64,000 nt of DNA. Origin: Flavobacteriales bacterium. Its GTDB lineage: Bacteria; Bacteroidota; Bacteroidia; Flavobacteriales_E; Vicingaceae. A program made the translations under genes and the position numbers. Positions within the stretch are counted from its first letter, which is position 1. Every line of letters begins with the position of its first letter. Below, piece after piece: positions 38,320-43,528 of this stretch. Where the stretch lies: positions 1 through 64,000 of the forward strand of contig JAJCYO010000147.1 of assembly GCA_029262875.1 (NCBI GenBank). Reading direction: 5' to 3'. The notes under the pieces are model-generated. The model was not told where the DNA came from. It saw nothing but the letters and a program-made list of their open reading frames with translations, and ran no database searches.

Positions 38320-39012
38320 TTATTTTACCAATAATCGAAACCCATTACCATGAACATTAATAATTTCAATAGCAGCATCTTCTTTCAGGTACTTCCTTAG
38401 TTTGGCAACAAAAACGTCCATGCTTCTTGTGGTAAAGTAATTATTGTCCTTCCATATTTTATTTAGAGCTAAGTCACGAGAAACAACTTCATTTAGGTTT
38501 TCACATAATAACTTTAACAGTTCCGATTCTTTTGGAGATAATTTTTTAACCGTTGTTTTTGATTTTAATTCACGTGTCTCAGTGTTAAAATCAAATGCTC
38601 CAAAAGCATAATTAATGGTTGTCTCTTTTTTAATTGTATTGCCATTTCGGCTTAAGATAGCCTTCAACTTATAGAGTAACACTTCTGTGTCAAAAGGTTT
38701 TGTAACGTAATCATCAGCACCAATTTGATATCCCTTTAGAATATCCTCCTTCAATTTTTTTGCAGTTAAAAATATTAAGGGAATGCTTGGGTTAATTTTT
38801 TTGATTTCTGTTGCCAAACTAAAACCATCTCTTTCAGGCATCATAACATCAACAATGCAAAGATCATAAATGTTGTTTTTAAAGCTTATTAGCCCTTTGT
38901 TTCCATCGGTACATAACGTAACAATATAATCACTTAGTTCTAAGTAGTTCTTTAAGACAGAACCAAAATTTTCTTCATCTTCAACTAATAGTATGGAGTA
39001 CTGTTTTTTCAA
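38320..39012 (-). CDS. OmpR/PhoB-family response regulator
   Basis: Receiver domain (SILLVEDEENFG, CIVDVMMPERDG, IFLTAK, DDYVTKPFD) plus winged-helix Trans_reg_C (KLSPKESELLKLLCEN...SMDVFVAKLRKYLKED). Confidence 0.94.
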   Translation of the reverse strand: MKKQYSILLVEDEENFGSVLKNYLELSDYIVTLCTDGNKGLISFKNNIYDLCIVDVMMPERDGFSLATEIKKINPSIPLIFLTAKKLKEDILKGYQIGADDYVTKPFDTEVLLYKLKAILSRNGNTIKKETTINYAFGAFDFNTETRELKSKTTVKKLSPKESELLKLLCENLNEVVSRDLALNKIWKDNNYFTTRSMDVFVAKLRKYLKEDAAIEIINVHGNGFRLLVK

Positions 39013-40589
39013 GAGGCAGGAATATTTATAGTAATCACAGTTCCTTGTTTTAATTTACTCTTTAATGAAATTAGCCCTTTGTGAGCGTCAACTATTGTTT
39101 TTACATAGCTCAACCCTATCCCAAAACCTTTTACTGTATGGATGTTACCCTTCTCTACACGATAGAACTTGTCGAAAACTTTTTTCTGAGTTTCATTACT
39201 CATTCCAATTCCATTATCTGCTATCTTTATTTCACATAAACCATTCACCAAGCTAGTGTCTATAGAGATCTCTGGATTGCTATCATTGTATTTTATGGCA
39301 TTATCAATCAAGTTACAGATTGCATTTTGAAGGTGCATTTCATCAGCTAACAATGTTACTTTTTCTTGAGTAAGGTTTAAATTTAATGTAGCATTGTGAG
39401 CTTCTAACTGGAGTTTCATTCGTGCTGGAATCTTTTGAATTAATTCATTTAAATCCACTTCAGATTTATCAAATTCTAATTCATCTTTTTCACCTAAAGC
39501 AGTGGTTAAAACACTTTCTACCTGCTTATTCATTCTTAAATTTTCTTTTCGAATGATATCAGCAAAATGATTGATTTGTTTTTCATCACTAATAATTTTT
39601 GGATGGGTAATGGAATCAACGGCTAAGGAAATGGTAGATATTGGAGTTTTAAATTCATGTGTCATGTTATTAATGAAATCATTTTTCATTTCAGACAACT
39701 TTTTTTGTTTTATCATGTAGTGTATGGTACTCATAAAAGTGAGCAAGATGATGAGTGTAAAAATAATTGAACAGGTAACCATTAACCACATAGACTTTAA
39801 CACGTAATGTCTCTTATTACCAAAGTTAAGTGCTAATTGTGCAGAATTACCAAACATGTTGTGTTTGAATAAACCGACCTTATAGGTATCATCCGAAACC
39901 TTAAATCCGTCCGAAGAAAATTGATCAATTACTTTATCATCATCTAAAATAGCATACTTAAAGGAAGAAGTAATTCCGTTATCTTCTAAATTAGATTTTA
40001 GAATAGGTTCAATGGTGATGCTTTTTAGTAGGTGTTGAATAGGCTCATCTATGGCTTTAAATTCTTTTACCATTTTTATCATAATGTTACTAAAACGATC
40101 ACTCACAATCATTTCATGATCTCCTACAAAAGTAAAAGAGTCATTTTCCATGAGCTGCTCCAAGTTTTCCAAGTTGTTCTTAATGTCTATGGTTTGCGTT
40201 TTTCCATTCACGCTAATTTTCATTTCCATCTCATCTCCATTGTCATCAGAAGTCATGGAGTAGTTAAAAGAATTGTCCTTTAGCTTGTTAGAGTCCATCT
40301 TGGCAATTTTCTTTACCCACTTTTTCATTTGTTTTGTATCGTGATGAAGTGAGTCTGCTTCAATAATGATATTAGAAGTAGCCGAAGCCAACTGGTTGTG
40401 AATAAAGTGAATGGATTCATTATCTTCTATATCGGTAACAACATGATTTAATGCATCGTTCACCAATTGGTCAAACTGGGCTTCCTTTACAGTTATACCG
40501 TTGTGTATCCAATAAATTTGAACCCAAATAATTCCGATTAAAGAAGTACTCATTAGAGCGATTAAAATGTATAGTATTCTTTTCTTCAT
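39009..40589 (-). CDS. Sensor histidine kinase with periplasmic sensor domain
   Basis: Two TM segments flanking ~240-aa domain; H-box NNMTHEFKTPISTISLAVDSI; N/G boxes ICNLIDNAIKYND, KIADNGIGM, KGFGIGLSYVKTIVDAHKG. 4-bp overlap with the regulator. Confidence 0.94.
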   Translation of the reverse strand: MKKRILYILIALMSTSLIGIIWVQIYWIHNGITVKEAQFDQLVNDALNHVVTDIEDNESIHFIHNQLASATSNIIIEADSLHHDTKQMKKWVKKIAKMDSNKLKDNSFNYSMTSDDNGDEMEMKISVNGKTQTIDIKNNLENLEQLMENDSFTFVGDHEMIVSDRFSNIMIKMVKEFKAIDEPIQHLLKSITIEPILKSNLEDNGITSSFKYAILDDDKVIDQFSSDGFKVSDDTYKVGLFKHNMFGNSAQLALNFGNKRHYVLKSMWLMVTCSIIFTLIILLTFMSTIHYMIKQKKLSEMKNDFINNMTHEFKTPISTISLAVDSITHPKIISDEKQINHFADIIRKENLRMNKQVESVLTTALGEKDELEFDKSEVDLNELIQKIPARMKLQLEAHNATLNLNLTQEKVTLLADEMHLQNAICNLIDNAIKYNDSNPEISIDTSLVNGLCEIKIADNGIGMSNETQKKVFDKFYRVEKGNIHTVKGFGIGLSYVKTIVDAHKGLISLKSKLKQGTVITINIPAS

Positions 40590-40604
40590 ACTTAATTACA
40601 GATA

Positions 40605-40612
40605 CAAATTTA
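40605..40612 (-). promoter_or_regulatory. Candidate -7 element (TAAATTTG on minus strand) for the kinase/regulator operon
   Basis: Plus strand caaattta; matches TAnnTTTG; no TTG at -33. Confidence 0.45.
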
Positions 40613-40638
40613 ACTTTTAAGACAGACTAAACGGAAAC

Positions 40639-40676
40639 TTTAACTTTTCCTTAACTTTCTTTAAGAGTTCTTTAAC
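40639..40676. promoter_or_regulatory. Array of four direct repeats (T/C)TTAA(C/G) at 11/10/11-bp spacing: candidate response-regulator operator
   Basis: TTTAAC (40639) tttc..CTTAAC (40650) .. TTTAAG (40660) .. TTTAAC (40671). Confidence 0.6.
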
Positions 40677-40698
40677 AGTGATTTAGCTTGACCTCCAA

Positions 40699-40706
40699 TA
40701 GATTTG
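40699..40706 (+). promoter_or_regulatory. Candidate -7 element (TAGATTTG) for the Met-rich secreted protein gene
   Basis: Matches TAnnTTTG; no TTG at -33, the operator array lies there instead. Confidence 0.45.
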
Positions 40707-40742
40707 CAGAGTAAATAAATGATAAACCAAAAAAATTATATT

Positions 40743-41858
40743 ATGAAAAATTTAAAAACTTTATTAATTCCAGTTGGCTTAATAGTATTAGTTGTTGGAA
40801 TTTTTTCATTTACCAACCATGAAGTTGGAAATGATGATGAAAAATGTACCATAAAAATTGTGAAGATTGTAGATGGTGTTGAAACTGTTATTGATTCAAC
40901 ATTTGATTGTGACGAAAGTATGAATTGGATGACTGAATTGCATGGAATGGGAGATTCACTACACAAAATGATGAAAGTGATGATGATTGATGGAGACTCT
41001 ATTGATTGCAATTTTACTTTTGAGTTTGATGAGGACGATGAGAAAGGAATGAAAATGATGAAGTTTAAAGGGGAAGATGGAGAAGAAGTGGAAATGAGTT
41101 TTGATTTTAAAATGTTAGATGGTGAAGATGGAGTAATGAAAATGATGGTAAATGGCGAGGAGATGGAAATCAAATTAGAGGATATGCACAAGCACATGGA
41201 AAAAATGCATGAAAAAATGGAATTTATACATGGGGATGAATCTGGGAATGTAGAGATCATGATTAAAAGTGATGAAGATGGAGGAGAAGCTCATACAGTA
41301 AAAATCATAAAAACAGTAGATGATGAAGGGAACGTTACAATGAAAAAAATTGTAGATGGTGAAGAAATGGAAATTGATGACAAGGATATGCATAAAATGC
41401 ATGGAGGACATAAAATGATGTTTATCTCAGATGATGGTAAAGTGACTAAGATGGATGGAAACCACGAGATGACCATAGATGTGAAGGTTGATGCTAAAGA
41501 CGGAAAGAAGGCGAAGCATATAGTTATTATTACTAAAATGACAAGCGATGATGAATCTGCTAAGAAAATTCCAGCAGTTGCAGGGATGGATAAAAAAGAA
41601 TTGTCAATTAATAAATTGAAATTTAGTCCGAATCCGAATGATGGAAAATTTGACTTAAGCTTTAAGTTGAATAAAAAAGAACCTGTTCAAGTAAAAATAT
41701 TTGATGTACAAGGAAAAGAAGTTTATTCAGAAATAGTATCAGAATTTGACGGGAAGTATATCAATAACATTGATATTAGTGATAATGGAGAAGGAATTTA
41801 CATACTCCAAATTGTGCAAGGAGACAAAGCAAGTACAAGCAAAATAGTTATAAAATAG
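40743..41858 (+). CDS. Met/His/Asp/Glu/Lys-rich secreted protein with internal repeats and T9SS type-A sorting domain
   Basis: Start moved to MKNLKTLLIPVGLIVLVVGIFSF (track ORF from 40719); modules VNGEEMEIKLEDMHKHMEKMHEKM and VDGEEMEIDDKDMHKMHGGHKMM; tail FSPNPNDGKFDLSFKLNKKEPVQVKIFDVQGKEVY...GIYILQIVQGDKASTSKIVIK. Confidence 0.85.
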   Translation: MKNLKTLLIPVGLIVLVVGIFSFTNHEVGNDDEKCTIKIVKIVDGVETVIDSTFDCDESMNWMTELHGMGDSLHKMMKVMMIDGDSIDCNFTFEFDEDDEKGMKMMKFKGEDGEEVEMSFDFKMLDGEDGVMKMMVNGEEMEIKLEDMHKHMEKMHEKMEFIHGDESGNVEIMIKSDEDGGEAHTVKIIKTVDDEGNVTMKKIVDGEEMEIDDKDMHKMHGGHKMMFISDDGKVTKMDGNHEMTIDVKVDAKDGKKAKHIVIITKMTSDDESAKKIPAVAGMDKKELSINKLKFSPNPNDGKFDLSFKLNKKEPVQVKIFDVQGKEVYSEIVSEFDGKYINNIDISDNGEGIYILQIVQGDKASTSKIVIK

Positions 41859-41881: not shown

Positions 41882-41912
41882 AACCCCAGATGTTTTTCAT
41901 CTGGGGTTTTTG
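41882..41912 (+). terminator. Intrinsic terminator
   Basis: aACCCCAGATGtttttCATCTGGGGTTtttg. Confidence 0.85.
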
Positions 41913-41974
41913 CTTTTATATTATTCATTCTTGTTACTTTTAGACAAACAAATAAAATAGTTATGTTGATAACA

Positions 41975-42499
41975 ATGCCTTTTAATTTCAATCAATGGAT
42001 TGAAGACAATAAAGATAAATTAAAGCCGCCTGTTGCAAATAAAAGCATGTACCCTATGGGTAAAGATTTTATTGTAATGGTAGTGGGCGGTCCAAATGCT
42101 AGAAAAGATTACCATTTTAATGAAACAGAAGAGTTGTTTTACCAAGTAAAGGGTGATGTTGAAGTTACCATTCAACAAGATGGGAAAGCGGTTAAAGTTC
42201 CTATTAAGGAAGGAGAAATGTTTTTGCTCCCGGCAAATATTCCACACTCGCCAGGAAGACCAGAAAACACAGTAGGGTTAGTAATAGAGAGAGTTAGACA
42301 AGGAACTGATTATAAAGATGGGTTAATGTGGTTCTGTGACAAGTGCAATCATAAATTATATGAAGAAAGGTTTACCCTCAACGACATTGAGAAAGATTTT
42401 TTAGATGTTTTTGAAAAGTATTATGGTTCAGAAGAGAATCGAACATGTGATAATTGCGGGCATGTAATGGAAACAGATCCAAAGTTTACCAGAGATTAA
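41975..42499 (+). CDS. nbaC: 3-hydroxyanthranilate 3,4-dioxygenase
   Basis: MVVGGPNARKDYHFNETEELFYQVKGDVEVTIQQDGK cupin, LPANIPHSPGRPENTVGLVIER, and C-terminal CxxC pairs CDKCNHKLYEERF/CDNCGHVME. Start moved to MPFNFNQW (track ORF from 41963). Confidence 0.93.
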   Translation: MPFNFNQWIEDNKDKLKPPVANKSMYPMGKDFIVMVVGGPNARKDYHFNETEELFYQVKGDVEVTIQQDGKAVKVPIKEGEMFLLPANIPHSPGRPENTVGLVIERVRQGTDYKDGLMWFCDKCNHKLYEERFTLNDIEKDFLDVFEKYYGSEENRTCDNCGHVMETDPKFTRD

Positions 42500-43528
42500 A
42501 TGAGTAGAAAGAGAATAAACGGACACGGGCATATTCTTCCAGAGCCTCATCAAATTCCAACGTTTATGAAAGACAAGAAATTGTTTTGGATAGATGATGA
42601 TAAGAAGTTTATGCGACAAGGTGATTGGTCTCGACCAATAACTGATCCCAGTTTTTTCTTGGCAGAAAAGTTAGCATGGATGGATAAATACAATATCGAT
42701 CATGGCGTGATGCTTAATCTCTCTCAAATTTATTGTAATGGCTGGAAGCAACAAGATGCTACAGATGCTATACAATGGCAGAACGATTTTAATGCTTCCG
42801 TCCAACATGGACATCCTGATAAATTTACAAGCGGATTTGTAGTTCAGCCTTTGTACATGGATGATGCGTTGGCAGAAATTGAACGTTGTGTAACCCAATT
42901 AAACTTAAAATTACTTTGTCTTCCAACTCATTTTTTAAACTCAAATAATGAGTGGACATCTATAGCTGACAAATCAGTTTTCCCGATTTATGAATTGGCA
43001 AATAAATATAACCTGGCGATAGAGATTCATCCTTATGATGGAGAAAAGATGGTTAATTTAAAAGATCAATATTGGCGATTTCATTTGGTATGGATGATGG
43101 CACAATGTGCAGATACCTTACACCTTTATACACTAAATGACATTCCTAATAAATATGAAAACATTAGAACATGTTTCGCACATGGATGCATGCTTGGAAT
43201 TGCTAATTATGGGAGAAGACTACAAGGGTATGATGGGAGACCAGATTTGTTTGAAGGAACTGAAAACCCAAGAGCTTCTTTAGGCCATAAAAATTTGTTT
43301 TTCGATACGTTGGTCCATGATTCCTATACACTGGAGCTACTTAAAAGAAGAGTTGGAGTATCTCAAATAGTTGCCGGATTAGATGACCCATATCCACTTG
43401 GAGAAATGGAAGGAGTAGGAAACTCTTTTCCAGGAAGAGTAATTGATTTTGCCGTTGAAGTTGATATTTTAACACAACGAGAAGCTGATGAAATATGGTG
43501 TGATAATGTGTTGAGGTGGTTGGGTTAG
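42500..43528 (+). CDS. 2-amino-3-carboxymuconate-6-semialdehyde decarboxylase (ACMSD), amidohydrolase family
   Basis: NGHGHILPEP, AIEIHPYD, CFAHGCMLG, FFDTLVHD, QIVAGLDDPYPLGEMEG; abuts 3-HAO gene. Confidence 0.9.
   Translation: MSRKRINGHGHILPEPHQIPTFMKDKKLFWIDDDKKFMRQGDWSRPITDPSFFLAEKLAWMDKYNIDHGVMLNLSQIYCNGWKQQDATDAIQWQNDFNASVQHGHPDKFTSGFVVQPLYMDDALAEIERCVTQLNLKLLCLPTHFLNSNNEWTSIADKSVFPIYELANKYNLAIEIHPYDGEKMVNLKDQYWRFHLVWMMAQCADTLHLYTLNDIPNKYENIRTCFAHGCMLGIANYGRRLQGYDGRPDLFEGTENPRASLGHKNLFFDTLVHDSYTLELLKRRVGVSQIVAGLDDPYPLGEMEGVGNSFPGRVIDFAVEVDILTQREADEIWCDNVLRWLG

Follow-up and report, generated by a model that had tools for sequence, protein, structure and literature searches.

In Bacteroidia, a conserved, predicted DNA switch is located at an OmpR-type kinase-regulator pair, at a divergent gene for a secreted protein and at the remote htrA gene. 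This suggests a Cpx-style response to envelope stress in which a T9SS cargo serves as the accessory protein. We consider it probable that the locus encodes an RprXY-like, autoregulated envelope-stress system that is functionally CpxRA-like, with a T9SS-tagged acidic protein at the place of cpxP.

Architecture of the locus

In the window (the whole 64-kb stretch of DNA that was analysed), the minus strand carries an operon (38320-40589) of two ORFs that overlap by 4 bp. One ORF (39009-40589) encodes a membrane sensor histidine kinase with HisKA and HATPase_c domains (Pfam), an assignment that also draws on an AlphaFold model and on class-wide relatives. In this model, an extracytoplasmic domain sits between two TM helices and contains an insert (residues ~67-168) that is variable and modelled with low confidence; a fold search with the sensor model gave no match at E <= 0.001. 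The other ORF (38320-39012) has a TTG start and encodes an RprY-like response regulator of the OmpR/PhoB type. PorX-type regulators combine a CheY-like domain with a PglZ-type domain; the window's regulator consists of Response_reg and Trans_reg_C (Pfam) and hence lacks this architecture.

The ORFs and their Pfam domains thus form an adjacent pair of OmpR-type regulator and membrane kinase, as in RprXY. Among NCBIfam models, the regulator matches RprY best. Its 290 bits fall short of the 370 required for an equivalog, and other regulators in the kinase family score 270-343 bits against the same model. By these sequence comparisons, the regulator and kinase are of a known kind and belong to a class-wide RprXY-like family.

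The divergent gene on the plus strand (40743-41858) encodes an acidic, Met/His-rich protein in which an N-terminal signal is followed by a conserved motif (TIKIVKIVDGVETVIDSTF in the window). The protein ends in a T9SS type A C-terminal sorting domain (41625-41855, plus strand; PF18962 and TIGR04183; AlphaFold pLDDT ~70-94 for residues 291-371). An intrinsic terminator (41882-41908, plus strand; z = -6.2) closes this single-gene unit. An earlier, sequence-only reading had described an OmpR-type regulator/kinase operon divergent from a T9SS-tailed gene, and the ORF coordinates and Pfam domains match that description; the genes, the 4-bp overlap, the tail and the terminator are all found where it placed them or no more than a few bases away.

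Genes of the kynurenine pathway, encoding 3-hydroxyanthranilate dioxygenase and an amidohydrolase, adjoin the three genes of interest (41963-43528 in the window; also L063:3568-5010). An aldehyde dehydrogenase gene is divergent from a paralogous kinase in other loci, and kynurenine-type genes may therefore recur around the system.

A candidate operator between the divergent promoters

The intergenic region contains a -7 box of the form TAnnTTTG for the kinase-regulator operon (40605-40612, minus strand; TAAATTTG) and another for the secreted-protein gene (40699-40706, plus strand; TAGATTTG). Between them is a candidate operator of four NTTAAC/G direct repeats (40639-40676, plus strand), with copies TTTAAC at 40639, CTTAAC at 40650, TTTAAG at 40660 and TTTAAC at 40671, and thus a spacing of 11/10/11 bp. 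The paired -7 elements and four-copy array proposed earlier are therefore indeed present. Distances of 22 and 26 bp separate the array from the two -7 boxes, and it would therefore overlap or abut both -33 regions. A repeat period of 10-11 bp is expected for regulators of the OmpR/PhoB type. There is only one place in the 64-kb window where two TTAAC repeats occur in this register, and it is the array itself; the two other double matches have a shorter, 9-bp period.

The array is conserved in the orthologues of the window's locus and at distant kinase loci. The repeat box is found at all 22 loci outside the window's family at which a T9SS-tail gene accompanies a related kinase (described below), and in most loci that carry all three genes (hereafter the trio) a TAnnTTTG box follows the array. 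An NTTAAC operator lies some 41 bp (41-44) upstream of the kinase start across the kinase family, including paralogues without a secreted partner. Of 199 kinases, 72 are preceded by an array of three repeats in one orientation and none by an array in the opposite one, and the strict background is 0 in 1.7 Mb. The two-repeat form is present in 69 of 70 Flavobacteriaceae-type kinase loci, and is ~41-44 bp upstream in the 25 loci listed. When 395 genomes were searched with a strict four-repeat pattern, the matches were mostly kinase operators, and a reversed control was near zero except in two genomes with clustered control hits. Among the four-repeat loci inspected, 23 adjoin such a kinase. A T9SS-tail gene is found on the opposite side in 16; these 16 include L314, where the box and a secreted-family protein are found and the kinase is unlinked.

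There are only four loose three-repeat arrays in the window's genome. They are located in the window, at a paralogous kinase, in the alaS/M23-peptidase divergon and at a TMEM260-like gene, and the box is common to at least two RprXY-like systems in this genome, so that either regulator could act at a given site. Conserved TTAAC arrays between alaS and the M23 peptidase gene were also seen in several family genomes (L295, L276, L279, L294), and one array (L286) lies between a different histidine kinase and a gene for a Porph_ging (GLPGLI-type) secreted protein.

From the repeat period, the position and the presence of the array throughout the promoters of the kinase family, we infer that the window's regulator binds it, and likewise infer the direction of regulation. 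Given a conserved predicted operator that separates the two promoters, transcription in both directions is very probably under the control of the regulator, which would make the secreted protein an output of the regulon, as had been proposed from the window alone. This predicted co-regulation is well supported by inference.

Distribution of the trio

There are 10 genomes with a kinase orthologue (>50% identity) among the 46 searched from the window's family. In all 10, a Met-rich gene is divergent from the kinase, either 144-197 bp away or beyond one small inserted ORF, and a profile of the secreted protein is positive in the same 10 genomes and in none of the other 36. These orthologues are not phylogenetically independent, as nine of the 10 come from one genus, and inside the window's genus the flanking genes are conserved as well. 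The representative from another genus (G044, locus L042) retains the trio among unrelated flanking genes. At one orthologous locus, the operator and the Met-rich gene are separated by an ORF for a putative secreted protein of 111 aa (L039:6011-6346).

Similar arrangements are found across the class. A secreted-protein profile without the tail, searched against 395 class genomes, matched four further genomes, and all four matches are divergent from a related kinase. A set of 88 related kinase loci outside the family was built from a kinase search followed by inspection of the neighbourhoods of the matches. A divergent T9SS-tail gene is present at 22 of these loci, compared with 3 of 292 other ORFs at the same loci (Fisher p = 1.4e-12), where the 22 include three loci cut by the locus end and assigned by the N-terminus, and two (L213, L217) whose large T9SS proteins look unlike the secreted family. 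A phylum-wide profile (A4) gave one weak extra match. Thus, the synteny of the Met-rich gene with the two-component system is conserved in relatives, at all 10 orthologues and at many distant loci, as the earlier proposal required.

On the kinase tree, the presence of a partner is scattered and needs about 20 changes, with long branches that make the details unsure; gain and loss therefore appear frequent, and the tree lends no support to a single origin of the trio. About three quarters of the kinase-family loci have no secreted partner, and so the partner is not essential to the kinase. The locus had been proposed as a signalling unit of its own. It now appears to be part of something broader, since its kinase and regulator fall in a class-wide RprXY-like family most of whose members have no such partner.

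The secreted protein family

The C-terminal tail scores 47.6 bits with Por_Secre_tail (Pfam cut-off 27) and 48.9 bits with TIGR04183 (NCBIfam cut-off 23), and the genome encodes a T9SS, with SprA at 2605 bits. With a tail above both cut-offs and a T9SS in the genome, the secreted protein is, as judged from sequence, a T9SS type A cargo. Genes with such tails are numerous in this genome, and the protein has 46 matches there, nearly all through the tail. This tail is the only domain recognised, and there is no CpxP or Spy match in Pfam.

The core of the protein has 11.5% Met, 4.8% His and 24.9% Asp+Glu, well above the locus medians of 2.2, 1.8 and 12.8%, which bears out its description as acidic and rich in Met and His. 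It had also been called a repeat protein. This fits in part: the core is of low complexity and its model has a mean pLDDT of 42.7, a low confidence, and the C-terminal domain is the one portion with a confident fold. In the wider family, the median Met and His contents are 3.5% and 1.6%. Acidity is the property that the family conserves, and richness in Met and His is confined to the window's lineage.

In most trio loci, the signal sequence of the secreted protein is followed directly by a common motif, approximately VKIVKIxxGxxTxIDxT. Profiles built with one clade left out recovered most clades at E 1e-2 to 1e-12 and three only weakly, and missed the divergent member L316. With the full profile, family members score 36-81 bits, a truncated copy 23.5 and a degenerate copy 20.2, compared with 9.8 for the best unrelated protein.

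Four partners (L190, L191, L212, L223) have a degenerate T9SS tail and no PNP motif, and three of them have a lipobox-like start. The export route of the partners seems to vary, with the operator retained. A second family of small (106-110 aa), acidic secreted proteins was also observed under a TTAAC box (L292:1592-1924, L272:1594-1917, L280:1591-1911), in three genomes (G042, G015, G023) that all lack the trio. By profile, these small proteins do not group with the trio's secreted family: they score at most 4.8 bits or give no hit.

The predicted operator upstream of htrA

Strict array patterns match upstream of an HtrA-like protease gene in three genomes, G026 and two from family f54. The window's (Vicingaceae-like) family was represented by 30 genomes, and in 28 of them, its own genome included, the looser TTAAC double repeat precedes htrA; none has it in the reverse orientation. 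It is also present in 29 of 30 f54 genomes/genera, in the other orientation, where it is common to the divergent neighbour, dapF where identified. The double repeat occurs in the window at 0.023 per strand-kb, and f54 control ORFs have it in 0 of 70 cases in the orientation of the htrA repeat and in 12 of 70 in the other. An operator-like repeat in front of htrA would place the system with envelope quality control. Between the two stimuli suggested earlier, a metal ion and envelope or T9SS stress, this shared predicted operator favours envelope stress.

Comparison with known systems

In the cpx layout, the gene for an accessory envelope protein is divergent from the operon and regulator boxes lie between. 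The system at this locus shares with CpxRA-CpxP of E. coli an OmpR-type regulator and membrane kinase and an accessory gene divergent from their operon with a predicted operator between; its predicted regulon would likewise include htrA/degP, and autoregulation is predicted. The accessory protein differs in being acidic, T9SS-tagged, mostly of low complexity and not homologous to CpxP. CpxP associates with CpxA until stress displaces it (PMC4160245), whereas an interaction with the kinase is hypothetical here and a sequence-similarity proxy for it, described below, was negative.

RprX/RprY of Bacteroides and Porphyromonas is similar in that no other model fits the regulator and its relatives as well as RprY does. 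The window's system departs from it in its subthreshold score (290 vs 370 bits), in the second paralogous system in the genome and in the T9SS partner, of which the parts consulted of the RprY source make no mention. In those parts, P. gingivalis RprY is described as binding its own promoter and promoters of chaperone and stress genes (PMC3646045); here, the sequence shows a predicted operator in front of the kinase gene and another in front of htrA. Signalling through PorXY-SigP in P. gingivalis is influenced by PorA, whose C-terminal domain is of the T9SS type (PMC7712824), so that there too such a protein is linked to a two-component system. However, PorX is not OmpR-type and PorXY acts with SigP, and PorA has a FimH-like domain, whereas the window's gene is divergently linked to its kinase.

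Possible roles of the secreted protein

The conserved flanking genes within the window's genus might suggest that the three genes are chance neighbours in a conserved gene order. This can practically be dismissed and is already refuted by the class-wide data, as unrelated families and a further genus, with different flanking genes, retain the trio together with its common operator. A metal-sensing system, with a Met/His-rich protein that takes up copper or some other metal and a kinase that detects the metal, would fit the composition of the window's core and a Cys pair conserved in the window clade. We regard it as very unlikely, and a metal ion as stimulus is not supported: acidity is kept in the wider family and Met/His richness is not, the operator is located in front of htrA, an M23 peptidase gene and a TMEM260-like gene as well, and there is no metal gene among the operator sites inspected. 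The suggestion that the secreted protein mimics a ligand of the sensor found no support either. The window's pair gives a BLASTP E value of 0.014, but across 22 trios the mean similarity z is 0.81 for cognate and 0.71 for non-cognate pairs, and mimicry thus finds no support as a general feature.

That result is consistent with another possibility, that the secreted protein is only an output, a protective product of the surface or envelope (acidic coat, ion buffer or adhesin) without feedback on the kinase. The T9SS tail implies surface delivery, and the operator is common to the secreted gene and the kinase operon. We give this reading serious weight, a little short of even chances. Against it, the persistent divergent placement of the gene next to the kinase, seen across many families, exceeds what ordinary members of a regulon would require, and the lipobox-like starts and degenerate tails of some members point to the envelope rather than the outside. 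Alternatively, a T9SS block could cause the cargo to accumulate in the periplasm and to activate or release the kinase, as proposed for PorA-PorY signalling. The pairing of a T9SS cargo with a kinase and the effect of PorA on PorXY-SigP in P. gingivalis (PMC7712824) agree with this, but the argument is one of analogy, the regulator is OmpR rather than PorX in type, and a few family members have lost canonical tail features; we think it unlikely.

The RprXY-like, Cpx-style system that we favour might operate as follows. Envelope or T9SS trouble would activate the kinase, which would lead to phosphorylation of the regulator. The regulator would then bind the NTTAAC direct-repeat array and so control its own operon, the divergent secreted gene and the remote gene for HtrA, a periplasmic protease/chaperone. 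The secreted protein would cross the periplasm on its way to the T9SS, and there would most likely serve as a sacrificial client, chaperone or buffer. It might also be a feedback modulator of the kinase, a hypothesis made plausible by analogy because CpxP acts on CpxA and PorA influences a two-component system. Perhaps the periplasmic residence time of this cargo reports T9SS/envelope function to the kinase in a class-wide, NTTAAC-defined, secretion-coupled loop, an extension that we advance tentatively and consider rather improbable.

Implications

We found no description of the trio or of its operator in the open-access literature searched, nor was a defined envelope-stress system for Bacteroidia found in that search or an RprY binding motif in the RprY papers searched. 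What is new lies in the accessory protein with its T9SS tag and in a regulon defined by its operator. With this conserved operator, the regulon can be read from the sequences of many species, and htrA is indicated as belonging to it. The analysis also identifies a family of acidic proteins that are exported by the T9SS and tied to a sensor kinase. Together, the operator and the protein family open a route to how Bacteroidia sense envelope or T9SS failure.
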